35,800 bases of DNA from positions 1-35,800 of IMG/VR virus record IMGVR_UViG_3300031746_000085; one strand, given 5' to 3'. Source of the stretch: a virus. The translations under genes and the position numbers were made by a program. The notes below the pieces were generated by a model. It was not told where the DNA came from and made no database searches. It saw only the letters and a list, made by a program, of their open reading frames with translations. Positions 6,152-27,874 of the stretch are shown here, one piece after another (the stretch's first letter is position 1; every line of letters begins with the position of its first letter).

Positions 6152-6171
6152 CATAATTAAAATAAATAAAT

Positions 6172-9527: not shown

Positions 9528-9583
9528 AAATATTGTATTATTAATTAAGTTGCTATTAATTAATTAATAATACAATATTTTTG
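9528..9583 (+). terminator. long hairpin terminator after groEL
   Basis: A perfect 21-bp inverted repeat (9528-9548 and 9560-9580) with an 11-base loop lies 3 bases after the groEL stop, with the second arm running into a T tract. The stem is almost all A/T. It ends 1 base before the next late promoter motif. Confidence 0.75.
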
Positions 9584-9622
9584 TTACATATTTTTGATAG
9601 CGTATATTATTATTTAAGTTTG
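9582..9622 (+). promoter_or_regulatory. late promoter 1 (before the 199-aa gene)
   Basis: TGTTACA (9582-9588), 26 bases, then TAAGTTTG (9615-9622). The gene starts at 9648. One of six late promoters with this architecture. Confidence 0.75.
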
Positions 9623-9647
9623 TTATTAAATCTAAAAAATAAACGAC

Positions 9648-10247
9648 ATGCCAAGCAATCGCAGTAAAATAATTACGCTAACAGACTATATATCAGGTGG
9701 TGTATTCCAAGTATCTTCTTGTCAGATAATTTCTTTTCAAGCAATTGGATTGAATGATACTTCAATAACATACATTAATCAAAGAGGTGTCCGCAAAGTT
9801 GGTCAAAGAGTAACTCAAACTCCAGCAGCAATAGCAACAGCTTGTATTAGCAATGCTATAGGAATTTTAACTCCTATAACTTTAGATACCGGTATTATAT
9901 TGTATATTAATATTGACCGAATAATTTATATTGATGTTCTGTCAAACTCTGCTCCAGTAATAACAGCAGTAACTTACGATGCGTTAATAAATCCTCCACA
10001 AGTGTATTTATGTTCAGCCCCTACAGCGCTTGCGTTAAAGAATTTAACAGATAATATGTTGGCTATAACAACTGTTGCTACTTCAAGTATTCCTAGTAGA
10101 ACTCGTTATATTAACAATTTAAAAATTGATATATTGACTGGCACCACAAGTTCACATATATTTTATGACGAGCATAAAACAGAATTTATAAAATTAGAAG
10201 CTACTCAAACAGTAGCGGCTATCATTGCAACAGTAAACGCGTTGTAA
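9648..10247 (+). CDS. virion-type protein with three FlbD-like repeats
   Basis: A 199-residue protein that reads as three β-rich repeats, each a strand pair followed by a T-x(2-3)-A-hydrophobic helix: residues ~19-68 (ending TPAAIATACIS), ~84-136 (LYINIDRIIYIDV...APTALALKNL) and ~152-199 (RYINNLKIDIL...TVAAIIATV). Each unit resembles the small FlbD-type fold (xINxDxIxxI...VxxT/S...I). It is a monocistronic unit with its own late promoter and terminator, placed just before the terminase genes, which suggests high, independent expression. Likely a head or accessory virion component; the repeat reading is mine and the function unproven. Confidence 0.55.
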   Translation: MPSNRSKIITLTDYISGGVFQVSSCQIISFQAIGLNDTSITYINQRGVRKVGQRVTQTPAAIATACISNAIGILTPITLDTGIILYINIDRIIYIDVLSNSAPVITAVTYDALINPPQVYLCSAPTALALKNLTDNMLAITTVATSSIPSRTRYINNLKIDILTGTTSSHIFYDEHKTEFIKLEATQTVAAIIATVNAL

Positions 10248-10267
10248 ATAATTTTTTAATTAGGGTT

Positions 10268-10302
10268 AAAAAGGAGGGTTTAGAAATTTACTCTCCTTTT
10301 TT
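10268..10302 (+). terminator. intrinsic terminator after the 199-aa gene
   Basis: AAAAAGGAG (10268-10276) pairs with CTCCTTTTT (10293-10301), giving a 9-bp stem with a 16-base loop and a T tract, 20 bases after the stop. Confidence 0.75.
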
Positions 10303-10312
10303 ATTACAAAAA

Positions 10313-10353
10313 TGTTACAAAATATATATATTGACCATTTTATTTTAAATTTG
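10313..10353 (+). promoter_or_regulatory. late promoter 2 (before the terminase unit)
   Basis: TGTTACA (10313-10319), 26 bases, then TAAATTTG (10346-10353). The downstream leader is a run of AAATT repeats reaching the ATG at 10384. Confidence 0.75.
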
Positions 10354-10383
10354 ATTATTAAAATTAAATTAAATTAAATTATA

Positions 10384-10770
10384 ATGGATCGCCCAAAAAA
10401 CATTAAGGAAAAGTCTGTCCTTGATTATATTAATTATTTAGAATCTAAGCTAGATAATTTTACCAAAAATACATATTGTGATTCGTACCTTTCATTAAAA
10501 AGGATAGTTGATAAAGGAAATCAGCAAATTGCTACTATTGAAATTGATATTTTGACAGATGATGGGGAAAAGCAATATAAGTCAATTGCTAAATTCGCTT
10601 CTCAACTAAAAGAATATGGAGAGCAAATGGAATATTTTAAAAGTAAAATGACTGTGCAAGAGGTTGATAAAATAGATGGTGTAGTTATTAAAAAGATGGT
10701 TGATAAAAAGGTTGGTATTGCTGAAAAAATGGCTATAAATAATAAGGATGGAAAAAATACATCTATATAA
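10384..10770 (+). CDS. small protein before terminase, candidate small terminase subunit
   Basis: A 128-residue, Lys/Asp-rich, helical protein with coiled-coil character in residues 70-95 (FASQLKEYGEQMEYFKSKM). It is the first gene of the terminase transcript and overlaps the large terminase gene by 23 bases. Position and size suit a small terminase subunit, which binds packaging sites, but there is no clear helix-turn-helix, so this is a context guess. Confidence 0.5.
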   Translation: MDRPKNIKEKSVLDYINYLESKLDNFTKNTYCDSYLSLKRIVDKGNQQIATIEIDILTDDGEKQYKSIAKFASQLKEYGEQMEYFKSKMTVQEVDKIDGVVIKKMVDKKVGIAEKMAINNKDGKNTSI

Positions 10771-12988
10771 AGACTTATATTTTACTCTTCCAAAAGAGCC
10801 TGCCAAGAATAAAATTCAAGGGCATAACCTACTTAAAAATAAGCAAAAATGGAAACGAACAGAACTTCTAGATAACTGGAAAGAAGTAAGTGAGGAAGTG
10901 GAACTTATTGAACGCGAGCTAATAACTCTTGAAAAACAGTTAGAGGTAAAAGAAAGAAAACTTGAATTAAATAAACGTGAAGGAAAGCTTGTACGCAGGG
11001 CATCGTTAAATCCAATTGTTGAAGCTATAAATAGTCTTGTTGTTAGATATAATGAATTAAATGTAGAAATTGAAAAATTTGCATTTGAGGAGGATAGGAA
11101 GTGTACTGAAGGTATTTGGTTCATGAATAATGGTGTGGCCACCTACATAACAGGAGACCATTACCATTATTTGAATTGGTTTAAGCTTGATGGTATATAT
11201 GCCGATTTTAGAGATAGAGATAAACGCTGGTTCTATCATTGGTATCTGTGTGATAATGATACAGATTGCCTTGGTCAAGATTATGGTAAATTAAGGCGAG
11301 ATGGTTATTCTTTTAGGGTGATGTCTGTAATTTATAACAGGGCAAGGAAAACATTTGATTCTAAGTATGGTATCATGTCAAAGGCTGTAATTGACTCCAA
11401 CGAGATGTTTAATAAAGGAATAAATGCTTTTAATAATTACCCTTCATTTTTTAAGCCTCAAGTTTATACTGCCGAAGATCCAAAAGATAAAATTATTTTT
11501 AAGACACCGCAGCAAAGAATTACCTACAAGACACGCACCTCAAAGAAAGAAGTTAGTTTAAATACAGAGATACAATCCTTTGCTCCAAACGAAAATGCAA
11601 TGGATGGTTCTAAGCGTAAAATTATTGGTGGCGACGAAGTTGGTAAATTTAAAAAGGAAATTTCCGTAGAGAAATGGTTTAACGTAGCAAAAAGATGTTG
11701 TGTTCTTGGAAGTTTAATTACGGGTAAAATATTGTTCGGCTCAACAGTAAATGAATCTGAAAGTGGTGGAGCAGGATTTGAGGCGATATGGAATAACTCT
11801 GACCATACAAAGAAAACAAAAAACAACAGGACTGTAAGTGGACTATGGAGATATTTTGTAGATGCCGCAGATGGACAGGAAGGTTTTGTTGATGAATATG
11901 GGATGAGTGTTATCGAAACACCAGAAGTTCCTGTTATGGGAATAAATGGAATACTAATCCATGTTGGAGCTGCTGAGTATATAGCTAATGAGTTGGAAGG
12001 TTTAAAGAAAGCCGGAGATATGGTTGGTTATTACGAATTTAAAAGACAGTTTCCAAGGGAAGAGAGTGATATGTTTATATCGCCTTCAAACGAAAGAACG
12101 TGTTGGGATATTGACAAGATACATCAACAGCTTGAACATAATGCAATAGTATCTATTGATAGAACCATTGTACACGGTTATTTTGAATGGGCTAATGGAG
12201 TTAGGGATTGCGGTATCGTAAATTGGTGCCCAGTAGAACCTGACAATGTTTTAGCTAAGCATAAGTTTGTTTGGCTTCCTGAAGTAAATGACAGAAATAA
12301 ATTTACTATAATTAATGGAAAAAAGGCTCCTGCAAATTCTCATGTAGGGTTATTTACTCTCGACCCTTATGCTGCTGTAAATACTGTAGATGGAAGGCAG
12401 TCAAAAGCTGCTTCACATGGTTATAAAAAGTTTGATTACACTCAACCAAAACATTTAAGCGAAGCTTTTATTGGGCAATATTGGAATAGACTTCGCGATC
12501 CACTATTGGTTTACGAAGATTGTATAATGCAGTCTGTATTTTTTGGATGGCCATTAATTCCAGAAAGGAATATAAAGAATTGCAATGATTACTTTAGAAA
12601 TAGGGATTATCATAATTATCTTTTACAGGCGGCATTTATGACTGAGGAAGAATTTAATCTTAACAGAGATAAAATTCAAGATGCTGGACTTGCAAACACG
12701 GGCGGAAAAACTCAACAACAATTAGTAGAATATTTGGCAAGTTATATTGCAAATCATGTTGGGGTAAATGAAAAAACGGGAGAGATGGGATATATGCCTT
12801 TTGATGATACGTTAAAAGATTGGTTAGCATTTGATATATTGAAATGGACGCCTTACGATTTAACGGTAAGTTCAATGTTAGCAACAACTACTTCTCGCGG
12901 ATTTGTTCCAAAAAAGCAGGTATTAAAAATTTTAAATTTATGGCCAAAATATAGAACTAATGGTGATGTAAGTGAATATATAGCTTAA
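10748..12988 (+). CDS. terL: terminase large subunit
   Basis: A 746-residue packaging motor: ATPase plus nuclease. An N-terminal ~120-residue coiled-coil region (residues 45-115) precedes the ATPase. Walker B is KIIGGDE (291-297) with the catalytic Glu, and the coupling motif is ILFGSTVNE (328-336). The expected P-loop position holds GKLRRDGYS (180-188), a deviant Walker A like the basic RRxGxS loops of crAss-like terminases. The RNase H-like nuclease is seen as VGLFTLDPYA (533-542), the acidic LVYED strand (587-591) and the DDTLKDWLAFD segment (686-696). It would translocate DNA into the prohead at the portal encoded next. Length and order match crAss-like phages. Confidence 0.88.
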   Translation: MEKIHLYKDLYFTLPKEPAKNKIQGHNLLKNKQKWKRTELLDNWKEVSEEVELIERELITLEKQLEVKERKLELNKREGKLVRRASLNPIVEAINSLVVRYNELNVEIEKFAFEEDRKCTEGIWFMNNGVATYITGDHYHYLNWFKLDGIYADFRDRDKRWFYHWYLCDNDTDCLGQDYGKLRRDGYSFRVMSVIYNRARKTFDSKYGIMSKAVIDSNEMFNKGINAFNNYPSFFKPQVYTAEDPKDKIIFKTPQQRITYKTRTSKKEVSLNTEIQSFAPNENAMDGSKRKIIGGDEVGKFKKEISVEKWFNVAKRCCVLGSLITGKILFGSTVNESESGGAGFEAIWNNSDHTKKTKNNRTVSGLWRYFVDAADGQEGFVDEYGMSVIETPEVPVMGINGILIHVGAAEYIANELEGLKKAGDMVGYYEFKRQFPREESDMFISPSNERTCWDIDKIHQQLEHNAIVSIDRTIVHGYFEWANGVRDCGIVNWCPVEPDNVLAKHKFVWLPEVNDRNKFTIINGKKAPANSHVGLFTLDPYAAVNTVDGRQSKAASHGYKKFDYTQPKHLSEAFIGQYWNRLRDPLLVYEDCIMQSVFFGWPLIPERNIKNCNDYFRNRDYHNYLLQAAFMTEEEFNLNRDKIQDAGLANTGGKTQQQLVEYLASYIANHVGVNEKTGEMGYMPFDDTLKDWLAFDILKWTPYDLTVSSMLATTTSRGFVPKKQVLKILNLWPKYRTNGDVSEYIA

Positions 12989-12992
12989 TTAT

Positions 12993-13033
12993 TGTTACAT
13001 AGTTAATATTAAAAAATTTGCTAATTAAATTTG
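12993..13033 (+). promoter_or_regulatory. late promoter 3 (before portal)
   Basis: TGTTACA (12993-12999), 26 bases, then TAAATTTG (13026-13033). The motif begins 4 bases after the terminase stop. Its position rules out the TTG start at 13031 for the portal gene. Confidence 0.75.
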
Positions 13034-13051
13034 TTAAAATACTATTTCCTA

Positions 13052-15544
13052 ATGGGGGTTAATACAAGTGTTAAATATTCGGCGTTTCCTAGTGATTTCG
13101 CTACATTGGAAGAAAAAAAACAGCCAAAATACGGGTTAGAGTATGTAAAAGCTATGTATGGCTTATATCTTATAAACTTTCCTGTTAATAATCCTGTTTA
13201 TTTACAATATCAAATTAATAGAGAATTTGCTGAAGGAATTTATAATACGGATATTTACAAAAGTAGATTAGGTATTTCTGGTGATAATTCATATTTAAAC
13301 TTGGATTATACATCAGTTGACCGCATTCCTACAATTGTAGATAATATGGTAGGAAAATTAACTAATAAGCCTTGGCGTTTTCAATGCAATCCAACAGATA
13401 CAGTATCAAGAGGTAAATTTGATGCTAAAAGAGCTGAAATGAAAGCTGACATGTTTTTAAGACAACATTCAGATGAAATAGAAAAGTTAACCGGTATTCC
13501 ATTAATTCCTAAAGGAAAGTTTGTTCCAGAAGACGAGGACGAAAAAGAGCTTCATCTTCAAATGAACTTTAAACTTGACGAGGCGGAAGCTATGGAGCTT
13601 GCTTTAAAATGGGTTTTTGACAACAATAACTTTAATAGCGAATCAGTACCATTAATATATAGAGATTTAATAACCGATAAAAAAGCTTGTATTGTAAGGT
13701 ATTATGATGCAAACAAAAATATTAAAGTAATGCGCTGGGATCACATGAAACTTATTCACCCTCCAAGTACATTTGAAAACTTTAACGATATACCTTATGT
13801 TGGACTTTTGCCTACATACACCATTGGCGCTATCTCTAAAATGAATACCAATTTTACTGATGAGCAATTGTATGATATAGCTAAAAATAATGCAGGCAAC
13901 AACAATAACTCTATTTGGGACGTTTCTTGGGGAACAAACTATGCTCAATATGCTCAATATTGTGGCGGAGGTGTAGGAAATTTTGCTTACAGACAATTTC
14001 AAAACTTTAATATAAATGTAGTAAATTTCTTTTTTTTAACTCCTGTAAATGATGTTACAGCAGTAAAAACAAGCGAAACAGGTAAATTAAGAGTAGAAAA
14101 TAAAAAAGAAGGATATGTGGTTAATCCAAAAGAAAAAACTTTTGGCGAGGAAACTGCCACTACAGAAGTTATAAATAGAAAAAAATTAGTTCGTTTTGAA
14201 GGCTTTTGGATTCCTAACACAGACTTGATGTGGGGTTACGAAATGACTAAGAACGAGGATAGAGATGTTGTTTTTGGCGGATATAGTCCTGAAACGGAAT
14301 TGCCGACAAAAATAATTATGCCAAATATGTTTGGTATGAGGAATAAGTCTGATGTTCAGCGTATGATTCCTTTGCAAAAACAGTTAATGTTAGCGTGGTT
14401 AAAATTGCAACAATTTTTAATTAAAGCTATGCCTCCGGGATTAGCTGTAAATCAAAACGCTTTATTAGAAATTGTTGGTGCAGTAGGAGAAGGAAAACCA
14501 TTACCGACTGATTGGACTAAATTATATCAACAAACAGGCTCATTTATATTTACCGATAAAGATGCAAGCGGTATGCCTATAAATATTCCTTTTAAAGAAT
14601 TAGAAGGAGGAATTGGTGCAGCATTTCAACAGTTTATGGTAGTAATGGATTATACTATAGCTAAAATGAATGAGGTTGTTGGGTACAATACAGCAGTAGA
14701 TGCTAGTTCACCTAAAGCTGATATGTTAGTTGGTGTTCAACAGATGGCTACTCAATCTACTTATGACTGTATGAGACCTAAGTATTTAGCAGCAACAAAT
14801 CTTATTGAAGGCACAGGGAAGCGCGTTGGCTTAATGATACAAGACTGTTTACGCCTTGGTAACGATAACTTTAAAAATGCTTTAATAGAGGCTATTGGAC
14901 AAGCTAATGTAGATGCACTTGTTATGGGTAGAGATGTTCCGTTTAGTTCTTCGGCTATTAGTTGCGAAATACAACCAGATGAAAAGGAATTAGCTGATTT
15001 AGAAGTTTTAATTCAATTAGGTATTCAAAGTGCTATGCTTACCCCTTCTGATGTATTAAGAGTAAGACAACAATTAAAAACAAATGTTAAATTAGCTGGA
15101 CAATTACTTGTATTTTTAGAAAATAAAAATACCAAAGAAAAGGCAAAACAACAGTCTTCTGCTATTCAAGAAAACGCTTCAGCACAACAGCAGTCAGTAC
15201 AAGTTTCTTCTCAAATGCGTCAACAAGAGTTGCAATTAGAAAATCAAGCAAAAATAGAACTAATGCAATTTGAGTATCAATTAAAGAGCGGGTTAAGCCA
15301 ACAAGAGCATCAACAAATGATGCAAGAAATAGCTGGCAAAAATATTGGTATAGCTGACCAAGCTAGAATTAATGCAGGAAGAGCAGTAGAGGTTCAATCT
15401 ATTTCTACAACAGGCAAACTTGAAGAGGCTCACATCGCAAAAGATAAAGCGGTTGAAAAAGCGCAAATAGACCACGGCAGCAAGTTGGGGCAGATAGCTT
15501 TAAAAGGTGCAATAGAGCCTAAGAAAGAAACGGCGAATAAATAA
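13052..15544 (+). CDS. portal protein (crAss-like)
   Basis: An 830-residue portal that would form the dodecameric DNA-entry ring at one capsid vertex. The N-terminal signature (REFAEG at 57-62, then YLNLDY at 81-86, then IPTIVDNMVGKLTNKPW at 92-108) is the pattern I associate with crAss-like portals. The final ~150 residues are Gln-rich and helical (QQSSAIQENASAQQQS... to EKAQIDHG), suggesting a coiled-coil barrel or crown. The open frame extends to a TTG at 13031, but that codon lies in the promoter; the ATG at 13052 gives an 18-base leader. It directly follows terminase and precedes the scaffold-like and capsid genes, the canonical packaging order. Confidence 0.85.
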   Translation: MGVNTSVKYSAFPSDFATLEEKKQPKYGLEYVKAMYGLYLINFPVNNPVYLQYQINREFAEGIYNTDIYKSRLGISGDNSYLNLDYTSVDRIPTIVDNMVGKLTNKPWRFQCNPTDTVSRGKFDAKRAEMKADMFLRQHSDEIEKLTGIPLIPKGKFVPEDEDEKELHLQMNFKLDEAEAMELALKWVFDNNNFNSESVPLIYRDLITDKKACIVRYYDANKNIKVMRWDHMKLIHPPSTFENFNDIPYVGLLPTYTIGAISKMNTNFTDEQLYDIAKNNAGNNNNSIWDVSWGTNYAQYAQYCGGGVGNFAYRQFQNFNINVVNFFFLTPVNDVTAVKTSETGKLRVENKKEGYVVNPKEKTFGEETATTEVINRKKLVRFEGFWIPNTDLMWGYEMTKNEDRDVVFGGYSPETELPTKIIMPNMFGMRNKSDVQRMIPLQKQLMLAWLKLQQFLIKAMPPGLAVNQNALLEIVGAVGEGKPLPTDWTKLYQQTGSFIFTDKDASGMPINIPFKELEGGIGAAFQQFMVVMDYTIAKMNEVVGYNTAVDASSPKADMLVGVQQMATQSTYDCMRPKYLAATNLIEGTGKRVGLMIQDCLRLGNDNFKNALIEAIGQANVDALVMGRDVPFSSSAISCEIQPDEKELADLEVLIQLGIQSAMLTPSDVLRVRQQLKTNVKLAGQLLVFLENKNTKEKAKQQSSAIQENASAQQQSVQVSSQMRQQELQLENQAKIELMQFEYQLKSGLSQQEHQQMMQEIAGKNIGIADQARINAGRAVEVQSISTTGKLEEAHIAKDKAVEKAQIDHGSKLGQIALKGAIEPKKETANK

Positions 15545-15585
15545 TGTTACATTTTTGTTATACATATAAATGAAAATTATTTTTG
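15545..15585 (+). promoter_or_regulatory. late promoter 4 (before scaffold/capsid)
   Basis: TGTTACA (15545-15551), 26 bases, then TATTTTTG (15578-15585). The heptamer starts on the base after the portal stop codon. It should drive the scaffold-like gene and the major capsid gene, since no promoter lies between those two. Confidence 0.75.
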
Positions 15586-15619
15586 TATTAAAATTAAATT
15601 TAATTAAATAAAATATAAT

Positions 15620-16732
15620 ATGCCGACAATAGAAGAACAAGTATCAGCAGGTCTTTCTGCAAAATACGCTGAAGTATCAGGAGTTGTTGCTCCAGTAATT
15701 GAAAATAAAGAGATTGCGTCTGAAAGCGCTACTCCAATTATTGAAAATAAAGAACTTTTAGTTAAGGATCCGGTCATTGAAAAGATTGCAATAGAAGAAA
15801 AGCCATTAAAATCTTTTGATGAGCAATTATCAGAAAGGACTTCTGGTAAATACAATAAGTGGGAAGATGTTGAATTAGGCCTTACGCCTAAAGAATTAAA
15901 GTTTGCAAATGAAAAAATAAAGCACTTTAATGAATTAGCTGAAAAGGGAGTTGACGTAACAAGTAGAGAATTTCTTGAATTACAAGGAGTTGATTTTGAA
16001 AAAATAGATAAAGCAGAAGATATTTTATTCGAAAAATGGAAAAGAAGTGAAGATGGAGAAGGTTTGTCTGAAACAACAATTCGTAACGATATAAATAAAA
16101 AATATAATATTGAAGATTGGATTGACAAAGACCCTTCAGATTATAATAGTGATGATATAGCCAATAGAGAAAAAATGGCTAGGGATTCAAATAAAGCAAA
16201 AAGTTGGTTAAACAACTATAAAAACGAACGATTATTAGAGAAGCAGGTTGATCCAAGTGTTGCAGAAGCGATGGCAGAAGCAACTAGAACACAACTAAAC
16301 AGTTGGGATAAATTTGTTGATTCTGATTTAGTAAATAAGATTACAAAGTTGTCTAGCCCTATTAGCTATAAGGATAAAGCTGGTAAAACAGTTGAATCAC
16401 AGTTAGACTTTGAAGTATCTGCCGAAGACAGTAAATATGTTGCAGATATGATGAAGCAGTTACCGAGAGATTCAAATGCGTTTTTTAATCAGTTTATAGA
16501 TAACAATGGAAATCGCAATCATGAAGCACTTGCTGTTATGATGCTTAAAGCAAGAAGTTTTGATAAGGCAAGGGCTTTATCTTATACAGCTGGAGCAGAA
16601 CAAAGAGCATTAGCTATTGAAAAAGTCGCAAAGAACACAGACTTTAAACCTTCTGAATCAGTTTCAGCGGGAAAAGTGTTCACAACAATAGAAGAGGCTC
16701 AAAAAAACGCCTTAATAAACATGAAAATTTAA
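15620..16732 (+). CDS. scaffold-like capsid assembly protein
   Basis: A 370-residue, highly charged, helix-rich protein between portal and major capsid genes, where scaffolding proteins are normally encoded. The N-terminal 70 residues hold repeated short blocks (PVIENKEIASES, PIIENKELLVKD, PVIEKIAIEEK); the rest is Glu/Lys/Asp-rich with few aromatic residues. There is no membrane segment or catalytic motif. It would assist prohead assembly and leave or be packaged. Inference from position and composition; a capsid-internal cargo protein is the alternative. Confidence 0.6.
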   Translation: MPTIEEQVSAGLSAKYAEVSGVVAPVIENKEIASESATPIIENKELLVKDPVIEKIAIEEKPLKSFDEQLSERTSGKYNKWEDVELGLTPKELKFANEKIKHFNELAEKGVDVTSREFLELQGVDFEKIDKAEDILFEKWKRSEDGEGLSETTIRNDINKKYNIEDWIDKDPSDYNSDDIANREKMARDSNKAKSWLNNYKNERLLEKQVDPSVAEAMAEATRTQLNSWDKFVDSDLVNKITKLSSPISYKDKAGKTVESQLDFEVSAEDSKYVADMMKQLPRDSNAFFNQFIDNNGNRNHEALAVMMLKARSFDKARALSYTAGAEQRALAIEKVAKNTDFKPSESVSAGKVFTTIEEAQKNALINMKI

Positions 16733-16774
16733 TAATTAAAAACTAAAAAGAGAGTTTAAGAAACTTATAAAAAT

Positions 16775-18220
16775 ATGTCATTTTCATTTAGTACACCATC
16801 AACGGTGCAGGTAGCAACACAATCAAATTGGGTTGCATCTAATGCTGTTTACGATTTACGTAAACCATATATTGACCCTAGAGAAACCAAGTCTTGGGGA
16901 TCTCAAGATATTACAGGGTTGTTTGACGAGTTAAAAGGCGGAAAAAACTATGTAGAGGCAAATTTTGGTCGCCATTTTGAAGAAGATCGTTTACATACGG
17001 TTATTCATGCAACAGGCTTAACAGTTGCAGCTTTAGGTGCTGTAACTTATACAATAGTTGCTGGAGATACCATTACTGGTTTCCCTACAGTTCAGTTACC
17101 TTATATTGCAACAGGTACAGCTGGTTTTCCTTCATTAGGAGGTCCTGTATTAAAGCCTGTTCGTATTCACGAAGTATTAGTATTTCCCGGAGATGTTCGC
17201 GGTAAAGTAACAGCTATATTAGGAAGTACATTTACTGCAACTCCAACAGGTTCGGTAAATTTACCAACAACCATTGCGACAGACGAAATTTGGAATTTAG
17301 GTATTTCTACTCCAGAGGGTTTTAAAGAACAAATTAGCTCTAATAACTGGAGAGAACATGTTGTGTATTGGAACTCTGAGATTATGGCAGACGCACACGA
17401 GTCGACTGGAACTGCAATGGTTCAAGCTACTTGGATTCCATTTACTGCTCCCGATGGTTCTACAATGTATAATTGGTGGTTTAAAGGCCAAATGGGTGCA
17501 TTAAAGCAATTTCGCAACTATCGTGAATTAAAATGGGTGTTTGGACAAGCTGTTACCAATGCTACCACTTTGCCTACTAATTACTCTGCACAATACCAAC
17601 AAACTTCAGGTTTGCTTGAATTTGCAAGTTCTTTTGGTAACGTTCCAACTTATGATTTAACAACTGGTCTTACATTAGATTCTTTTGGAAATATCATCAT
17701 TGATACAATGTCTAAAAACGCTGCATCAACTGAGAATTGTTTTTACGAGTCTATTTCTGTAGATAAAATGTTTAGTCAATTTATCAGTGTTGAAATGCAA
17801 AATGGTGCTGTTCAGTATGATGCTCTTGGTGGAACTAAAGATGCTTACATTAAGTTTGATTTCAAACATTTTGAGTATTTAGGTTATACTTTCCACAGAA
17901 AGGTGTATTCTGTTTTCAATGATCCTACCTTAGCTGGTAATGTTAGCTCTGTTTACAAAAACTTTGCTTTCATGGTTCCTTTAGAAAATAACATGTATCA
18001 GTGTGTTGAGAAAAAAGACAAAGTTGATTGTCCTCCAATGAGAATTAACTTCTTGAAACAAGGAAGTGTATCTCGTGAGATGATTGAAACTTTAACTGGT
18101 GGTGCTATTGGTGGTTATACCGACAATGGCGATTACGCTAAAGTTGATTTTCGTTCTGAAAATGGTGCTGAATTTTTTGGTGCTAACAGGTTCTTAACTT
18201 TAACAGGAGAGAATTTGTAA
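16775..18220 (+). CDS. major capsid protein
   Basis: A 481-residue protein with the features of a phage major capsid protein: no charged linker, many Thr/Gly/aromatic β-segments, a long inserted β region (about residues 85-175) and a conserved C-terminal body (YIKFDFKHFEYLGYTFHRK, then YKNFAFMVPLEN). It follows portal and scaffold-like genes and is followed at once by the strongest G/C hairpin terminator of the window. Codons are somewhat richer in C-ending forms than in neighbours, fitting high expression. An HK97 fold is expected from the family. A 42-base gap without a promoter suggests co-transcription with the scaffold gene. Confidence 0.82.
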   Translation: MSFSFSTPSTVQVATQSNWVASNAVYDLRKPYIDPRETKSWGSQDITGLFDELKGGKNYVEANFGRHFEEDRLHTVIHATGLTVAALGAVTYTIVAGDTITGFPTVQLPYIATGTAGFPSLGGPVLKPVRIHEVLVFPGDVRGKVTAILGSTFTATPTGSVNLPTTIATDEIWNLGISTPEGFKEQISSNNWREHVVYWNSEIMADAHESTGTAMVQATWIPFTAPDGSTMYNWWFKGQMGALKQFRNYRELKWVFGQAVTNATTLPTNYSAQYQQTSGLLEFASSFGNVPTYDLTTGLTLDSFGNIIIDTMSKNAASTENCFYESISVDKMFSQFISVEMQNGAVQYDALGGTKDAYIKFDFKHFEYLGYTFHRKVYSVFNDPTLAGNVSSVYKNFAFMVPLENNMYQCVEKKDKVDCPPMRINFLKQGSVSREMIETLTGGAIGGYTDNGDYAKVDFRSENGAEFFGANRFLTLTGENL

Positions 18221-18224
18221 TTTA

Positions 18225-18264: not shown

Positions 18265-18302
18265 TAAAAATATTATACTTAAATTAAATAAAATTAAATA
18301 CA

Positions 18303-19481: not shown

Positions 19482-19503
19482 AATAATAATAAATTTTTTA
19501 AAG

Positions 19504-19537
19504 CCTCTTTAGTTTAAAAACTTAAAGAGGTTTTTTT
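19504..19537 (+). terminator. intrinsic terminator before the fibre/tail operon
   Basis: CCTCTTTAGTTT (19504-19515) pairs with AAACTTAAAGAGG (18-30 of the same stretch, ending 19530) with one bulge, followed by T7. It ends 1 base before the next late promoter motif. Confidence 0.8.
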
Positions 19538-19538
19538 A

Positions 19539-19579
19539 TGTTACATATTTATTCTTATAGGATATGCTATGTATTTTTG
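19539..19579 (+). promoter_or_regulatory. late promoter 5 (before the fibre/tail operon)
   Basis: TGTTACA (19539-19545), 26 bases, then TATTTTTG (19572-19579). It should drive the seven genes to 27831. The in-frame ATG at 19538 lies inside this promoter, so it cannot be the main start of the next gene. Confidence 0.8.
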
Positions 19580-19597
19580 AATAAAACAAATTTTATT

Positions 19598-21118
19598 ATG
19601 GCCACAATAAGTTTTTCAACGACTTTTGATTTAACATTAAGCCCAATACAGGCTATATTTACTGATACGTCAGACTATTCAGGTCAAGCAATTCCTTTAG
19701 CTAATGTTGTGGGGAGCTTTACAATAACAGCCCCAAGCGGAGTTGTTATTTATAATAATACAGATATTACAAATGCAGGATGCGACATAGATATTGTTAA
19801 TTCGTTAGTAAGTCAGCAAATTATTACCCTTCCTTTAGACTCTTTTTTATTGCCAGAAATTGGTAATTATACAATAGTTTATAGGGTATGGAACTCAGCT
19901 TTAAGTGTATTTTATACAATAACTAATGTTGTAAATTATCAATACGTCGCTCCTGAAATTTGTATTAATCAAAGAATAGACTGCATCTCCCCTTTATTTA
20001 GTTCAGTAGATGCCACTGATTATACTGTTAATGGAATAATTCCTGCTATAGTTGGGACACATACGTTGGATTATCCCTTTGGCTCTGCAGGAGAGGGTGT
20101 CCCAACAATTTTGCCATTTACAGCAGAGGCTTCAGTAATAGCTGTATCAATATTTTATCAAGGAACTCAAACTACAGAAATAGTAGCAGGGTTAACATAC
20201 ACTATTATTACAGGCGTTAATTCTTTTATTGTTATTGATTCAATATCTGGCAAAAGAGAAATTAAAGTTGATTGCGCTTACATTTGTTCAATATTATGTT
20301 GTATAAGAACTTATGAAAAAATAAAAGAAAGTTTTAGAAACACAAACGCTGTTAAATTTAGAGAATACGATGAAGTTTTCCATGAGATAATGTCTTATGT
20401 TGGCTTAATGCAGTTTTCTATTGAGTGCGGATTAGGCGATGAGGTTTGTGATTATTTACAAAAAATAAAAATTTTATCAAACTGTTCAGACGCTTGTAAA
20501 TGTAGTTCAGAAAACGCATCAAGAGTAATTGGATTAGGTTATTTAATTGGCCCCGCTGGCCCTGCTGGCCCACAAGGAAATCAAGGAGCATCTGGCAATA
20601 ATGGTAACTATGTAACAGTAACAGCGGAAGCTCCGGGAGTAAATTGCGTTAATGGCGGACAGAAAGTAATTCTTTACAATGGAATAACAAATTTGCCAAT
20701 AAGCACAAGTTATATTTGTAATGGTGTCCCACCTACAATAGATTTTGTAATTGAATCAACTGACAACAGTCCAGCAGTAAGGTTTGTTGTTGCCGCAGCA
20801 ACAAACAATCAAACTGTAACCGGGTCAACAGGTCTTGTCGCTGTTTCTGGAACATATTTTATTATATATGAAGCAGACTGCTTAACAACTGGCGCAGCGG
20901 TTGACTGCCATTTTAATTTGAATAAAACAGGCGCAATTCCAATTAGCGATACAAGGGAGTTAAGGGCTTTGGCAATAAGTTCAGGGACTATATATAAAAT
21001 AGTATGCACCACGGTTGCTGTACTTATTGCAGGCGATTTAGTAAATTTAATTATAGATAATTTTGGTGGATTGTTTGTTGTTAATGGGAAATCAATAATA
21101 ATGATTAAAATAGCTTAA
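19598..21118 (+). CDS. collagen-like head-fibre/appendage protein (506 aa)
   Basis: A 506-residue modular protein. Residues 1-200 are β-rich, with immunoglobulin-like strands (GSFTITAPSGVVIYNNTD..., NYTIVYRVWN). Then come a Cys-rich helical segment (CAYICSILCC near 226-235, CSDACKC near 297-303), six Gly-X-Y triplets GPAGPAGPQGNQGASGNNG near 318-336 and a β-rich C-terminal domain. Short collagen-like repeats trimerise fibres in many phages, so this is likely a head or tail fibre. A frame opening at 19538 adds 20 residues, but that ATG is inside promoter 5. It is followed 5 bases later by a second collagen-like gene with a related Cys motif. Confidence 0.7.
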   Translation: MATISFSTTFDLTLSPIQAIFTDTSDYSGQAIPLANVVGSFTITAPSGVVIYNNTDITNAGCDIDIVNSLVSQQIITLPLDSFLLPEIGNYTIVYRVWNSALSVFYTITNVVNYQYVAPEICINQRIDCISPLFSSVDATDYTVNGIIPAIVGTHTLDYPFGSAGEGVPTILPFTAEASVIAVSIFYQGTQTTEIVAGLTYTIITGVNSFIVIDSISGKREIKVDCAYICSILCCIRTYEKIKESFRNTNAVKFREYDEVFHEIMSYVGLMQFSIECGLGDEVCDYLQKIKILSNCSDACKCSSENASRVIGLGYLIGPAGPAGPQGNQGASGNNGNYVTVTAEAPGVNCVNGGQKVILYNGITNLPISTSYICNGVPPTIDFVIESTDNSPAVRFVVAAATNNQTVTGSTGLVAVSGTYFIIYEADCLTTGAAVDCHFNLNKTGAIPISDTRELRALAISSGTIYKIVCTTVAVLIAGDLVNLIIDNFGGLFVVNGKSIIMIKIA

Positions 21119-21123
21119 AAAAT

Positions 21124-21483
21124 ATGTGTAAAAATTGTGATTGTGCTTGTAAAGGCGAACCGGGACCAAGAGGTCAACAAGGGGTTGCTGGCCCAATGGG
21201 TGTTCCCGGAACAGGCAGCACGCCATTAATAAATATATCTGCTACATACACAGCTTTAGCCGCGGATTACACAATAAATGCTATAAACAATACATTTGTT
21301 GTAACGCTACCAACAGCGGTTGGCATATCTGGAAAGATATATGTTATTAAAAATAGCGGAACAGGCATTATAAGTTTAGCTACCACAGGAGGTCAATTAA
21401 TTGATGGCTTAGCCACGCAAACTCTTCCTATATATGTTTCTTATACTGTTCAGTCAAACAATACAGGGTGGATTATAATTTAA
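21124..21483 (+). CDS. small collagen-like fibre protein (119 aa)
   Basis: A 119-residue protein opening with a cysteine cluster, MCKNCDCACK, then six to seven Gly-X-Y triplets (GEPGPRGQQGVAGPMGVPG, residues 11-29) and a ~80-residue β-rich C-terminal domain (ISGKIYVIKNSGTGII... to NNTGWIII), like the distal domains of many phage fibres. The collagen-like stalk should drive trimer formation; the Cys cluster could bind metal or cross-link in the virion. It lies in the tail/fibre operon and probably partners the preceding collagen-like protein. Confidence 0.7.
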   Translation: MCKNCDCACKGEPGPRGQQGVAGPMGVPGTGSTPLINISATYTALAADYTINAINNTFVVTLPTAVGISGKIYVIKNSGTGIISLATTGGQLIDGLATQTLPIYVSYTVQSNNTGWIII

Positions 21484-21501
21484 TAATTAATAGTTAAAAA
21501 A

Positions 21502-21936
21502 ATGACATACATTCCTGTTTTACCAGATGCAACCGTAAAATCTTTTAAAGTTACCATATCAGCTGCTGATGTTTTAACTGCAAATACAAATAGAGTTATT
21601 CTTGTTTCTGCTCCCGGAGTAGGCTATACAATTGAATGTATAACTGCATCAATTAAAGTTCTATACAATACTATAGCTTATGCTACAAATTTGACAGGAA
21701 CTATAATTTCTGGAACAGCGTTAAGCAATCCGTTTGGCTCTCAAATTATTTTTACTAATGCTTTAGCTGCAACGTTAACAAGAGAAATAACTTATACAAA
21801 AGCAACTACATTTGGTGCAACAACTAAATGTTTTATTGAAAACGAAGGCCTTTACTTTACTGTTAATACAGGAAATCCTGTTCTTGGAGATTCGGATATT
21901 GTAGTATATGGATTATATAGAATAAAAGCGATATAA
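21502..21936 (+). CDS. β-rich virion protein, unknown (144 aa)
   Basis: A 144-residue Thr/Ile/Ala-rich protein with alternating β-strand pattern throughout and no charged helices, typical of a small jelly-roll or β-sandwich virion component (decoration, fibre base or tail tip). No family recognised. It lies 18 bases after the small collagen-like gene and 1 base before the next gene. Confidence 0.6.
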   Translation: MTYIPVLPDATVKSFKVTISAADVLTANTNRVILVSAPGVGYTIECITASIKVLYNTIAYATNLTGTIISGTALSNPFGSQIIFTNALAATLTREITYTKATTFGATTKCFIENEGLYFTVNTGNPVLGDSDIVVYGLYRIKAI

Positions 21937-21937
21937 A

Positions 21938-22591
21938 ATGTCTGTAAATGTTAATCTTTTTAAAGCCACAGCGGAATTTATAAGCAATAAATCCCAAAGC
22001 GGAAATACTGTAACCCCTTCCCAATTTTCTCTTATTGCGGATCAGGCTCAGTTATTAGCATTTGAGCAAGATAGATTAATATTCTTAAAGACAGGGGAAT
22101 CAAGCGATTATCTAAATTGGTTTTTAAAGAATACGATTATAAATCCAAGTTCAGCAACAGGCTACGCAAATTATCCGTTAGGCTTTCAGCATACCGCAGG
22201 AGTTAGGTGTTACTATAATGGTAGAGAGCGACCTGTAGAGCTTGTAGAAAATAAGGCGTGGGGAGAGGTTCAGGCTTCGGAATTAATGAAGCCAACAAGG
22301 TTATTTCCAAAATATACTGAGTTTTTGGGTGAGTACAGGTTTTTACCAAGAAATATTGGAATTGTTATGTTAGATTATTGGGTACGTCCTATAGTTCCAG
22401 TTTGGGCCTACACTATTGTAAATAACGTGCCTGTATATAACCCCATAGGAAGTGTAGATTTTGAATGGGAAGCATTTAGCTTTAATCGTATAATTAGCAT
22501 TTACCTTCAAATCATTGGGTGCAACTTAAAGGATAAAGAACTTTCAGTATTTGCATCAGAGTTTAAAAGTGAAACAAATTCAATATTATAA
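21938..22591 (+). CDS. putative portal-vertex/ring protein (217 aa)
   Basis: A 217-residue protein with a helical N-terminus (SQFSLIADQAQLLAFEQDRLIFLKTGESSDYLNWFL, residues ~27-62) and a β-rich, aromatic body (GVRCYYNGRERPVELV, NIGIVMLDYWVRPIVPVW). The pattern and its position before two other ring-type genes match the tail-ring group of crAss-like podoviruses. It likely forms one layer below the portal. Assignment is from pattern and gene order. Confidence 0.55.
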   Translation: MSVNVNLFKATAEFISNKSQSGNTVTPSQFSLIADQAQLLAFEQDRLIFLKTGESSDYLNWFLKNTIINPSSATGYANYPLGFQHTAGVRCYYNGRERPVELVENKAWGEVQASELMKPTRLFPKYTEFLGEYRFLPRNIGIVMLDYWVRPIVPVWAYTIVNNVPVYNPIGSVDFEWEAFSFNRIISIYLQIIGCNLKDKELSVFASEFKSETNSIL

Positions 22592-22595
22592 ATAA

Positions 22596-23186
22596 ATGGC
22601 AACAAGTCTTTATAGAATAGCGGAAAGTTGCAGGATAATAACTGAAAAAAGAGTTTCTATTCAGGTACTTGTTAGTGAAGTTACAGATGCTTATGGCGCT
22701 GTAGCAAAGAAAATTTGGTACGAGAACGCGGCTCAAGATACTCAAGAAGTTGACGGTTCTTTTATTAGCACTTTTAATTCTATTGAACCAATATTAGATT
22801 GCGACAGGGATATGTATTATATAATTTTACCTTCTACATATTTAATATTGCCACATGAAATTGGTGTTGTTTGGGTGTCGTTAATGAAGGATAGATTGAG
22901 TTGGGTAAGAGTTCAAAATTGGGGCATATTTAATGGATTAAAAGCTGCCGTAATGGGTGGAAGAAATCCTTATGAAATAGAAGGCAATAGAATGTGGTTT
23001 CCAAAAATGACAAGAGAAACTAGCGGCGCTGTTCTTTTAAAGTTAGCAATAGCTTTTGATACTATTGACCCTTACGAACAGTTAAATATAGGCCCTAATA
23101 TAGTAAATGATATTATTGTAATAGTTACTACGCCATATATGAATAAGCAGAATCCTATTGAGAAAATTAGAGAAATAATTAATTAA
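22596..23186 (+). CDS. putative tail ring protein (196 aa)
   Basis: A 196-residue protein with an N-terminal helical part, the segment MYYIILPSTYLILPHEIGVVWVSL (residues ~68-91) and a C-terminal β half (NRMWFPKMTRETSGAVLLKLAIAF). The LP...LP...GI.WVS pattern is familiar from ring/head-to-tail proteins of crAss-like phages. It sits in order between the other two ring-like genes with 1-4 base gaps. Confidence 0.55.
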   Translation: MATSLYRIAESCRIITEKRVSIQVLVSEVTDAYGAVAKKIWYENAAQDTQEVDGSFISTFNSIEPILDCDRDMYYIILPSTYLILPHEIGVVWVSLMKDRLSWVRVQNWGIFNGLKAAVMGGRNPYEIEGNRMWFPKMTRETSGAVLLKLAIAFDTIDPYEQLNIGPNIVNDIIVIVTTPYMNKQNPIEKIREIIN

Positions 23187-23187
23187 G

Positions 23188-23940
23188 ATGGCATATACAT
23201 TAGATTCAATTGTATCGGAATGGTTAGCAGAAAATGGCAAGCCTGAAAATCAAAGGTCAAGGCTTTATACAATAGCTTTGTCTTGCCTTCGCGAGATGAA
23301 TATGGATATTAATGGTGTAGTTAAGATTGTGGCATTAGCAATAAATAATAATGATACAGTAGATTTACCAAACGACTTTTTAAATTATTCTAAAATAGGA
23401 ATATTGGGAGCCGATGGCAGAATACATTCTTTAGGCAGAGATAGCAGTATAAATTTATTACCTATTTATGATGATTGTGGCGTACAGATTAGTTACCCAA
23501 ATACATCTTCTTCAGTAGACCCTTTTAGCGGAATGCCTTATTCTGGAATATTTTATGGATTATATAATAGCGCACAGTTTGGTATTAACGGAGGAAATAA
23601 TGTTATAGGGTATTTTCGTCTTTCAAGAAGCACAAATCAACTTTATTTAGCCAATATGAATATTTTGGCTGGCACTACATTAATAATGGAATACATTGCT
23701 GATATAGAGAGCAGCGAAAACGATTTTGAGGTTCACCCTTATGTTATTGAAACGATAAAAAATTATATTAGTTGGAAGTACGTATCTGGGGATCGCAATA
23801 CAGGTTTAGGAGAAAAGCAAATGAGAAGGGCTGAATATTTTAATTCACGCAGGTTGTCAAATGCTAGATATGGAGTAAGTACAATTGAAGAATGGGCATC
23901 CTCTTTGAGGGCTAGTAACACCGCAGCAGTTCGCTGGTAA
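23188..23940 (+). CDS. tail tubular / ring protein (P22 gp4-like)
   Basis: A 250-residue head-to-tail protein. The N-terminal helix pair (LDSIVSEWLAENG...YTIALSCLREMNM) is followed by DTVDLPNDFLNYSKIGILGADGRIHSLGRD (residues ~51-80), the LP-D-F-x-N-y-x-K-h-G pattern of tail-tubular/ring proteins, and a C-terminal helix with IETIKNYISWKYVSGDRNTG. It would join portal to the tail tube. It is directly followed (3-base gap) by the stabilisation protein, as in crAss-like and P22-like phages. Confidence 0.7.
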   Translation: MAYTLDSIVSEWLAENGKPENQRSRLYTIALSCLREMNMDINGVVKIVALAINNNDTVDLPNDFLNYSKIGILGADGRIHSLGRDSSINLLPIYDDCGVQISYPNTSSSVDPFSGMPYSGIFYGLYNSAQFGINGGNNVIGYFRLSRSTNQLYLANMNILAGTTLIMEYIADIESSENDFEVHPYVIETIKNYISWKYVSGDRNTGLGEKQMRRAEYFNSRRLSNARYGVSTIEEWASSLRASNTAAVRW

Positions 23941-23943
23941 TAT

Positions 23944-26900
23944 ATGCAACAGAAAATAGTTTTTACTAAAGGAATTGATTCTGATACAAGCCCTGAAGTT
24001 ATGCCTGATGGCGTAAGTAAATTTAGGCTTAATGCAAGAGTTTTTAGTTCTGAAAATGGGGAAGAGCAATCCGCCGAATCTGCCAAAGGAAACACATTGG
24101 TGCCATTTACTTTGCCTTTAGGGGTTAATACTATTATAGGGACAAACGAAGATAAGAAAAACAAAAAAATATATTACTTTTTACACAATGATTTAGATAA
24201 CCACTTAATTCTTGAATATAATTCAGTAACAAATGTTGTTGCAAAAGTTTTTCAAGATTCTGTAAATATTGTTGGAGGGCTTACTAATATATTAAATTTT
24301 CAATTAACTAATCTTATTACTGGTATTGATGTTGTAGAGTTGGATTCCAATAATCATTTATTGTATTGGACAGATGGCTATGTATCAACAAGCAATTCTA
24401 ATGAATATAATGAGCCAAAGAAAATAAATATCGAAAAGGGTAAATATTTTATGGCAGGAGATTTTATTAATGGCTATAAAACACCTTTTGATCCTGAGAT
24501 ATTATTTAGAATTAAGCAGCCTTCATTATGTGGGCCTACTTATATTTGGGCAAAAGGCGCACATGAGATTCAAATTACTTCAAATATTAATCAAACTCCA
24601 TTTACGGATCCCGGATTAGCAAATCCTCCCGGTGGAAATACAGTTGTTGCATTTAATGTAATACAGTTTGATGAAAGCAATGAGTTTAATCCAACTATTA
24701 TAGGAAATGCTTATAGTTGGACAGTAGGGGAAACTTTTCAATACAATGTCGCTAGTTCTGTATATATAAGAAATAACATTATTGCTTTAACAACTTGCGA
24801 CTTATGTATTTTTGTAAATGGCGTTGCTGTTTCAACTTTTAATGTGTCGCTAGCAGCATTTCCCGCATCTGGGAATTTTACTGTTCAAAATGATTCACTT
24901 AATTTAAACGCTGGAGATTATGTGCAAATTGTTGTAAATAACGTGTCTTTTGCAGGCGCTTTTGATATAAAAGGACTATCATTTACAGCACAAAAGAAAA
25001 GGGTAAATTATTTATTTAAACAATACCCTGTATTTAAAACACAATTTGTATATGATGATAATGATGTAAGTTCTTGGTCGCCATGGAGCCCTTACGTATT
25101 TCCAAACGTAGTTCACGATGCAACTACAGGAAATGATATTATTATTCAAGATAATTCAATAAATGTTATAGTAGAAACAGGCATTAATATTGTTACTAGA
25201 ATTCGAGTAGCTGTAAAAATGCTTGGCACTCAACTTATTAATAGCGTAATTCAGCCATTGGAATTTTCTTTAATTGCCGACCTTGACAAAAAGAATTTAC
25301 AGATAGCAGATAATTCAACTTATAGTTTTCAGTTTTTAAATGAAGGAAATTATACTCCAATATTTATTAAAGAAAGTATTAAATTATTTGATTCTGTACC
25401 TTTAGCTAGTCAGGCGCAAGAATTAATTATTGATGGAAGGATAACAGATGGATTAATAACCGAAGGGCAAAACTCTGTTGGTGTTGATATGATAATGAAT
25501 CTTTCCTATATTGACATAGGTACACTACCTAATTGGGCTACAGCTATAACGCCTGCTTCATTTTTAAAGTCTGGCGGTATTTACAAATATGGCATTGTTT
25601 ATTCAGACCACGGAGGCAGAGTTTATAATGCAAATATTCAACGGGGAGCGTCAACAGTTTTATTGCCAAACGGCAAATACGGAACTACACTATATGTGCC
25701 ATTTTTAACGGAGCTAGAATATAACGCTCCGCATGCAATACCAAATGCAGACATGGCTTATGTGCCACAAGTAAATATGCAAATTTACAACGAACCTCCT
25801 GCTTGGGCTACTCACTATTTTATTATAAGGAGTCAAAATAAAGGAATGACACAATATTTTCAGTTTGTAGCACAAGACGTTTCGTATGTTGATATATTAG
25901 GAGCTCCTGCAGCTCCAGCGGTGGCTACTAATTTAATAATTGATATTCTTAATATTACAGACAGATACCAAGACGAAAACGGAACATCTTCGTTAGTATA
26001 TGATTTTACCCCGGGGGATAGAATAAGATTTATTGCTAACAGGTCTGGAGCAGGGCCTTCTTTTACTCAAATAGGGCCATTTTTTAGTTTTAATGATACA
26101 GAAATTACTAGCTACGATTCTGCTACAGGACTTGTTTATATAAAAATGACAAGCGACATACCTATTGCTCCAGCAATGGGTTATGGAGTGCTTTTTGAAA
26201 TTTACACCCCGGCACGCAATGTTATAAATGATAATGAGTTTGTATATGAAATAGGAGAGTGCTATCCTTTAATTAATGATATTCATGGTAATTTAGTACA
26301 TTCTTTTGATACCAACCAATTAATAAATTCTTTTACTTCACAAGCAACTGTTGGAACAAACGTAACTGTTCAATTAGCTTTAGGGCATGGAATAGTATTT
26401 GGAGATAATGTAAAAATTGTTGATTTAACGTCAAGCATTTATGGGGTAGTAACAGTAGTAAATCCTACAAATGTTGTTGTATCAACAATAGGCTTTACTC
26501 TTACCGTATTTCCTTCAACTGGTTCAAAAAAGATTTACAAATCTGCTGATGGCGTATTAAATAGCGGAGATTGTTTTAGGATATTTCAAAATATGCCTTG
26601 GGTAAATACAGGCACAGTTCGCAGAATGTATATGTATGTGGAGAATATGAATATCTCTAATTTGTGGGTATCTAACGCTTGGGATTACGCAAGACCTAAC
26701 AGAGTGGATGAAAGCGCTGGTAGGGTAACAAGACCTTCTACGTGTATATGGAGCGAGTCTTTTATTCCAGAAACTCTTATAAATGGATTAAGTACTGTAT
26801 ATGACACCAATTTTCAAACATACGAACAAAAGTATGGAGGCATTTATTTATTAGTAAATAAAAACTTATTTTTAGACGTATATCAAGAATTAAAGGTTAG

Positions 26901-27831
26901 CAGGGTTCCTATTCAACAAAGCGTTCTTAATAGTACACAAGGGGTTCAACTTGTTACTCAATCTTCCGATGTTCTTGGTAGTGTTGCAATGTATTATCAA
27001 GGAGAGTTTGGAATAGGAAGGCACCCAGAAAGTCATGCTGAATATGCAGAACGTGATTATTGGATTGATGTTAATAGAGGTATTGTATTAAGAAAGTCTA
27101 ATGATGGAATAACTCCCATATCCGACTTATATAAACAGCACGTATTTTTTAATAATAAATGCAAAGATGTATTGGCGTACCCAAGCGGTAAGATTAATAT
27201 TTATGGAGTGTACGATGTTAAGTTTGGTGAATATATAATTTCTTTTGAGAATATTGTTGGGAATGTTTCTGTGCCCCCTTTTGTAGGAGATACAATTGCT
27301 TTTAATGAATACAATAATTCATGGAGTACTCATTATTCTTACATTCCTGAATATATGTGCAGTAATGGTATAGGTATTGTATCTTTTAAAGATGGAGCAA
27401 TATATACTCACAATACAAATAATTTATATAATAATTTTTATGGAGTTCAATACAGTATTAAATTATGGTTTTTCTCTAATTTATCTCCAAGCAATATTAA
27501 AGTATTTGATGCACTATCTTTAGAGGCATTACATTCTTGCAATGCTATAATTGAAACCCCTATAACAGAAGAAAATTTAATAGGACAAACAACAGGCTTA
27601 TTTCCTGCTAATTTTCAAAGAAAAGAAGGTTGGTGGTATTCAGATATATTAAGAGATGATACTACTCCCAATATTGTTCCGTTTCCTGCAATCCTTCCAA
27701 ATGCAAGATTTGAAGGCAACGTTCTTCGCGGAGCGTATGCTTTAATAAAGCTAGAGTACCTACCAGATAGTTATAATAAATTTTTTGCTTGTAATGTGAG
27801 GGTGATTAATAGTCCGAGAAGCAATGAATAA
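23944..27831 (+). CDS. tail stabilisation / muzzle protein (P22 gp10-like, very large)
   Basis: A 1295-residue protein opening with MQQKIVFTKGIDSDTSPEVMPDGV, the start typical of P22 gp10-like packaged-DNA stabilisation proteins, where a ring seals the tail below the ring proteins. It is mostly β-rich with many Asn/Asp turns and repeated sugar-binding-like sandwich patterns (residues ~240-340 and ~700-800 look like inserted β-domains, e.g. IYIRNNIIALTTCDLCIFVNG). P22 gp10 is 472 residues and crAss-like versions are larger; this is at the top end. It is the last gene of the unit from promoter 5. The next promoter motif begins 1 base after its stop. Confidence 0.75.
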   Translation: MQQKIVFTKGIDSDTSPEVMPDGVSKFRLNARVFSSENGEEQSAESAKGNTLVPFTLPLGVNTIIGTNEDKKNKKIYYFLHNDLDNHLILEYNSVTNVVAKVFQDSVNIVGGLTNILNFQLTNLITGIDVVELDSNNHLLYWTDGYVSTSNSNEYNEPKKINIEKGKYFMAGDFINGYKTPFDPEILFRIKQPSLCGPTYIWAKGAHEIQITSNINQTPFTDPGLANPPGGNTVVAFNVIQFDESNEFNPTIIGNAYSWTVGETFQYNVASSVYIRNNIIALTTCDLCIFVNGVAVSTFNVSLAAFPASGNFTVQNDSLNLNAGDYVQIVVNNVSFAGAFDIKGLSFTAQKKRVNYLFKQYPVFKTQFVYDDNDVSSWSPWSPYVFPNVVHDATTGNDIIIQDNSINVIVETGINIVTRIRVAVKMLGTQLINSVIQPLEFSLIADLDKKNLQIADNSTYSFQFLNEGNYTPIFIKESIKLFDSVPLASQAQELIIDGRITDGLITEGQNSVGVDMIMNLSYIDIGTLPNWATAITPASFLKSGGIYKYGIVYSDHGGRVYNANIQRGASTVLLPNGKYGTTLYVPFLTELEYNAPHAIPNADMAYVPQVNMQIYNEPPAWATHYFIIRSQNKGMTQYFQFVAQDVSYVDILGAPAAPAVATNLIIDILNITDRYQDENGTSSLVYDFTPGDRIRFIANRSGAGPSFTQIGPFFSFNDTEITSYDSATGLVYIKMTSDIPIAPAMGYGVLFEIYTPARNVINDNEFVYEIGECYPLINDIHGNLVHSFDTNQLINSFTSQATVGTNVTVQLALGHGIVFGDNVKIVDLTSSIYGVVTVVNPTNVVVSTIGFTLTVFPSTGSKKIYKSADGVLNSGDCFRIFQNMPWVNTGTVRRMYMYVENMNISNLWVSNAWDYARPNRVDESAGRVTRPSTCIWSESFIPETLINGLSTVYDTNFQTYEQKYGGIYLLVNKNLFLDVYQELKVSRVPIQQSVLNSTQGVQLVTQSSDVLGSVAMYYQGEFGIGRHPESHAEYAERDYWIDVNRGIVLRKSNDGITPISDLYKQHVFFNNKCKDVLAYPSGKINIYGVYDVKFGEYIISFENIVGNVSVPPFVGDTIAFNEYNNSWSTHYSYIPEYMCSNGIGIVSFKDGAIYTHNTNNLYNNFYGVQYSIKLWFFSNLSPSNIKVFDALSLEALHSCNAIIETPITEENLIGQTTGLFPANFQRKEGWWYSDILRDDTTPNIVPFPAILPNARFEGNVLRGAYALIKLEYLPDSYNKFFACNVRVINSPRSNE

Positions 27832-27832
27832 T

Positions 27833-27874
27833 TGTTACTAAAACTATTTTGCTTTGTATTGTTTACTATATTTG
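27833..27874 (+). promoter_or_regulatory. late promoter 6 (before the internal-protein operon)
   Basis: TGTTACT (27833-27839), 27 bases, then TATATTTG (27867-27874). It differs from the other five by one base in the heptamer and one in spacing. Only 4 bases separate the -7 box from the ATG at 27879, so the transcript is probably leaderless. Confidence 0.65.

Follow-up and report, generated by a model that had tools for sequence, protein, structure and literature searches.

Middle promoters of phage T4 combine a MotA box, WWTGCTTYA, centred near −30 with the host −10 element; the late promoters of P2 and 186 are served by the zinc-finger activators Ogr and Delta, with a site TGT-N12-ACA centred near −55; and at CRP class II promoters the dimer site TGTGA-N6-TCACA lies at −41.5. 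Late gene control in Bacteroidota phages has been little described, and our literature search on the subject found no paper describing a late promoter motif such as the one reported here. On the bacterial side, the sigma-A box TAnnTTTG has been mapped at −12 to −5 in Flavobacterium psychrophilum (PMC9723704).

We focus here on a Bacteroidota podovirus represented by a 35.8-kb genome fragment (IMG/VR record IMGVR_UViG_3300031746_000085, positions 1 to 35,800; 35,800 nt, hereafter the window), with most of the early region lying outside it. In this fragment and two relatives, L006 and L008, 14 late promoter sites pair a TGnTAC element with a TAnnTTTG −7 box at a nearly fixed distance. As in T4 middle promoters, an unaltered host −10-type box is preceded at fixed spacing by a short element that contains TG and is flanked by A/T, and the usual upstream contact is apparently replaced; unlike T4 middle promoters, they stand before late genes and carry TGnTAC centred at about −42, and no MotA or AsiA relative was found. 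As in P2 and 186, each late unit is headed by an upstream site and a host-type promoter, and a small zinc-ribbon-like protein is encoded in the window; the Ogr/Delta site TGT-N12-ACA near −55 is exact in only 1 of the 14 promoters. The centre, at about −42.5, is like that of a CRP class II site, but one short asymmetric element takes the place of a 16–22 bp dimer site, and CRP-type sites are matched in the 14 promoters with 3–5 mismatches at best. A sigma-54 promoter, TGGCAC-N5-TTGCW at −24/−12, also has 3–5 mismatches at best, and the T4 late promoter sequence is not matched across the 14 sites. Compared with the Bacteroidota sigma-A promoters of F. psychrophilum, the −7 box is identical and predicted leaders of 14–31 nt lie in the usual range, whereas upstream it is TGnTAC at −45, rather than TTG near −33, that is conserved (PMC9723704). 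As for the general class of phage late promoters with a dedicated activator, the element heads each late unit of the window, L006 and L008, and the leftward promoters are without it. By this analogy, an activator-type late promoter on a Bacteroidota −7 box would be a new version of the activator-dependent promoters already known from T4 MotA and P2 Ogr.

Six spaced pairs ahead of the late genes

Among the leftward genes of the window are those for a serine recombinase, an exonuclease and a protein with a DUF6291 domain; GroES/GroEL are encoded rightward, as are the terminase, the portal and the proteins of capsid and tail. Judged by its terminase and portal, the phage has no close cultured relative: the nearest, which include Flavobacterium elemo phages and Cellulophaga phi46:3 and phi38:1, are only 27–33% identical, and a query of bacterial genomes with the terminase large subunit (TerL) found no relatives. 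Besides a GroEL of its own, the phage has two GroES-like genes, of which one codes for a longer, 266-aa form (6469–7269, 7266–7559 and 7942–9525). At the other end, an open frame exceeding 1600 codons (30968–35800), with TPR-like and coiled-coil-like sequence, runs past the contig end in the position held by a giant structural protein in related phages.

The first-pass annotation had read six pairs of a TGTTAC-type heptamer and a TAnnTTTG box in intergenic gaps before late gene units, and all six were found where it had placed them (Table 1). The intergenic placement also holds, in the case of 19539 only with the gene start taken at ATG 19598, a start that relatives support. The site at 27833 is the weakest of the six, since its predicted transcription start coincides with ATG 27879 and the transcript would be leaderless. 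All element sites stand ahead of late virion genes, whose late expression is judged from gene content.

Table 1. Promoter pairs, palindrome sites of the sister lineages, and genes referred to in the text. Positions are those of the window unless a contig is named; distance is from the start of the heptamer to the box, in bases.
Feature	Position	Strand	Distance	Remarks
Late promoter, TGTTACA + 26-base spacer + TAAGTTTG	9582..9622	+	33	Before p9648 (ATG 9648); orthologous L006:3478, L008:377
Late promoter, TGTTACA + 26-base spacer + TAAATTTG	10313..10353	+	33	Before small terminase-like gene and TerL (ATG 10384); orthologous L006:4902, L008:1125 (TGATACA)
Late promoter, TGTTACA + 26-base spacer + TAAATTTG	12993..13033	+	33	Before portal (ATG 13052); orthologous L006:7330, L008:3818
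Late promoter, TGTTACA + 26-base spacer + TATTTTTG	15545..15585	+	33	Before p15620 and major capsid-like gene; orthologous L006:14567
Late promoter, TGTTACA + 26-base spacer + TATTTTTG	19539..19579	+	33	Before tail-fibre-like gene (ATG 19598); orthologous L006:18531, spacing 32
Probable late promoter, TGTTACT + 27-base spacer + TATATTTG	27833..27874	+	34	Before ATG 27879; relatives' contigs do not reach here
Seventh TGTTACA, ahead of TATCTTTG box (6144)	6120..6151	+	24	Divergent gap before GroES/GroEL unit (rightward, from 6172)
Terminase large subunit (TerL)	10748..12988	+		PHROG 6681, E 6.5e-103
Portal protein	13052..15544	+		PHROG 6547, E 4.1e-66
Virion structural protein, probable major capsid protein	16775..18220	+		PHROG 13704; 71% identity to L006 counterpart
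93-aa protein, weak candidate regulator	3132..3413	−		Has a leftward promoter of the ordinary kind (box at 3444)
59-aa zinc-ribbon-like protein, weak candidate regulator	735..914	−		CxxC...CxxC read from sequence
Sister palindrome sites	L101:9932, 15200, 21267; L023:1507, 3458, 8642; L026:661, 8886, 12065; L009:12057; L100:99(−), 2761(−)			

In shuffled versions of the window the spaced pair occurred 0.07 times on average and at most once, against six observed, and shuffled contigs yield 0.01–0.17 pairs each. The excess lies in the spaced pair: the window holds 86 TGNTAC and 67 TAnnTTTG in total, the latter alone being no commoner than chance, and the histogram of heptamer-to-box distances has a single peak, at 33. 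An unbiased count of every 6-mer and offset before TAnnTTTG ranks GTTACA/TGTTAC at 32–33 at the top, with 5 occurrences, and the best such combination in 200 shuffles never exceeded 4. When the intergenic gaps were shuffled one by one, so that their A/T-rich make-up was preserved, 0 of 2000 trials reached the observed 5.

No TGnTAC stands at 32–34 in the leftward promoters (6057, 3444 and 2354), as the first reading had also stated. The seventh TGTTACA is off from the late sites by about one helical turn. The same divergent gap (6042–6172), between the leftward operon and GroES-GroEL, also holds a TGTTACG on the minus strand at 6074, 17 before its box. Because the heptamers there sit 24 and 17 from their boxes, a factor reading TGTTACA might work differently in this gap.

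Anatomy of the upstream element

Over the 14 late promoter sites the conserved core is TG-n-TAC, with T, C or A at position 3 and A, C or T at position 7, and the four bases ahead of it are nearly always A or T (WWTGYTAC). The earlier proposal that TGTTACA is a palindrome suited to a dimeric protein gives way on this comparison: the relatives carry TGCTACC, TGATACA or TGCTACT, and the symmetry is therefore not a conserved property, while TG and TAC are constant, the orientation is the same at all 14 sites, and no inverted second copy or extended symmetry was seen around TGnTAC at any of them. Two of the relatives' sites have an additional TGnTAC 11 bases off, about one helical turn.

Reckoned from a −7 box at −12 to −5 (PMC9723704), TGnTAC occupies −45 to −40, a class II activator position. 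A TTG at the canonical −33 distance (17–23 bases before the −7 box), an element weakly conserved even across the Bacteroidota sigma-A promoter family, is present in 3 of the 14 late promoters, a frequency similar to that of background sites, and in 3 of the 4 leftward TAnnTTTG sites. A weak second feature lies near −19, where TTG stands 5 bases ahead of TAnnTTTG in 5/14 late promoters (TG in about half).

The TAnnTTTG box lies close ahead of a gene start in all 14 promoters, by selection; the predicted leaders keep to 14–31 nt in 13 of them, the exception being 27833, and the portal leader is predicted at 14 nt in the window, L006 and L008 alike. At every site the element starts 1–7 nt past the upstream stop codon or 0–10 nt past the T-tract of a terminator hairpin. 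Such tight packing suggests that TGnTAC is the upstream edge of the promoter, and that the promoter needs nothing further upstream.

Conservation and the sister lineages

The relatives were retrieved purely by protein similarity, and the first-pass annotation had been made without sight of them. L006, with a portal 64% and a major capsid protein 71% identical to those of the window, has five pairs versus 0.10 expected, and L008, with TerL 67% and portal 55% identical, has three versus 0.02. Scanned against shuffled sequence, as had been proposed, the window and its relatives thus hold spaced pairs far above chance. The element is present, at spacings of 32–34, in 8/8 orthologous gaps covered by these two independent relatives, and five orthologous gaps with it lie ahead of p9648, TerS/TerL, the portal, p15620 and the tail-fibre-like gene. 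Its five fixed letters are constant partly through the way in which sites were selected, and the informative result is that no covered orthologous gap is without the element. Spacer identity between orthologues is 42%, against 34% expected from base composition, and spacing and core are retained. Three window sites are repeated in L007, which is 99% identical, and one L008 site in L027. The TerL of L006 is only 36% identical to that of the window, against 64% for portal and 71% for capsid, a disparity in sequence identity which suggests mosaic exchange of this gene.

The TGnTAC/TAnnTTTG pair is not enriched in about 70 other contigs with related terminases, nor in five isolate phage records; stray matches among all of these number 6, mostly within TerL coding sequence. 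A search for contigs that extend beyond the window's left end yielded a single one of 8 kb, L186, which is without the element. In the sister contigs L009/L100, L022/L101, L023 and L026, with TerL about 48–60% identical, late TAnnTTTG promoters instead carry a 19-bp palindrome near ATTTAGAATnATTCTAAAT, with 25–28 or 33–34 bases from its start to the box, and the gaps concerned include those ahead of the portal, p15620 and the tail-fibre-like gene. The sites of Fur/PerR proteins are 7-1-7 boxes, which this palindrome resembles; the FUR family was rejected as its reader, no FUR gene being found in the seven contigs searched. Late promoters of a Flavobacterium elemo phage (L010, elemoF; 10043, 16094, 26837, 29355 and 30194) share a common extended −7 motif, roughly TTATTTCG-TATCTTTG-CAAA.

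Pfam, PHROGs and NCBIfam searches of the window's proteins found no transcription factor. The fragment covers little of the early region, and other contigs with the TGnTAC element are shorter than its 35.8 kb. Two weak candidates were noted. The 93-aa protein is missing from the corresponding operon of sister contig L100, and its AlphaFold model (pLDDT 52.6) is uninformative on fold; the 59-aa protein gave sub-threshold zinc-ribbon matches only.

How the element may be read

On balance we favour the view that the pairs are true late promoters and that TGnTAC is the site of a co-activator, probably phage-encoded and lineage-specific, which aids the host RNA polymerase. To its Bacteroidota host the TAnnTTTG box would be an ordinary sigma-A box; from TGnTAC at −45 to −40, the class II position, a sequence-specific co-activator would touch the polymerase, in place of a conserved −33 contact; and such a protein, made early, would turn on all the structural-gene units together. 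This fits because of the element's position, fixed spacing and single orientation, the absent −33 contact and the confinement to late units. TGnTAC alone carries about 10 bits and is found 86 times in the window, and binding must therefore depend on promoter context. The first-pass annotation had offered a late activator or a site tied to an alternative sigma factor. What stands of this is a late element at a set distance ahead of a −7 box of host type, which the leftward promoters lack and the relatives keep; since that box is an ordinary sigma-A box, an alternative sigma factor is the less likely reading.

It is unlikely that the phage exploits a host transcription factor bound to TGnTAC together with the ordinary host sigma-A box. 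The −7 box is indeed of host type (PMC9723704), and the phage fragment yielded no regulator, but the pair is not enriched in the roughly 70 related contigs and the five isolate records, and the corresponding gaps of the sister lineages hold another element. This lineage-wide difference argues that a lineage-specific factor, and not the host polymerase itself, sets the sequence, although differing hosts may account for it as well.

An operator for a phage repressor that silences late genes early in infection is quite unlikely in a location, −45 to −40, upstream of the polymerase core contacts, and a short, asymmetric element that never changes orientation and whose spacing varies by no more than one base fits polymerase contact better than blocking. 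What speaks for a repressor is the sister palindrome, which reaches into the region from −33 to −20 where repressors typically bind, and the TGTTACA at 6120, which overlaps −36 to −30.

The low information of TGnTAC, its strict coupling to the −7 box, the A/T-rich bases ahead of it and the unconserved −33 contact would also suit a polymerase altered by a phage sigma factor or a sigma-remodelling protein, as in T4 MotA/AsiA, that reads TGnTAC as an upstream element. This shades into the co-activator explanation, but as a separate account it is very unlikely: the −7 box still has the host consensus, and a MotA box would be expected near −30 instead of −42, WWTGCTTYA being exact at 0 of the 14 sites (one site has it with one mismatch near −30). 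Finally, that the element belongs to the upstream unit, in termination or RNA processing, is scarcely credible. Its constant closeness to an upstream terminator or stop codon speaks for this reading, but the kind of upstream end differs and the distance to it varies, for terminators too, whereas the −7 box always follows at 33 ± 1.

Implications for late gene control

With a co-activator as the preferred reader of TGnTAC, we tentatively propose that in this group of Bacteroidota podoviruses late genes are transcribed by the host polymerase with the help of co-activators that are lineage-specific and exchangeable, and that the whole late promoter set changed regulator together during evolution. 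One lineage may thus read the asymmetric TGnTAC at −45, and its sister the 19-bp ATTTAGAATnATTCTAAAT palindrome at about −45 to −20. The same tag, or a lineage-specific alternative in the same gaps, suggests virus-specific late-gene switches. If this is true, dedicated late activators of such Bacteroidota phages are still to be discovered. A well-defined late promoter, in which an activator site sits at a fixed place on the unusual TAnnTTTG promoter, would give a handle for finding the regulator, as well as a way to study the contacts of activators with the divergent sigma-A polymerase of Bacteroidota. Regulator replacement would also have a clean natural example in the regulon-wide difference between the sister lineages.
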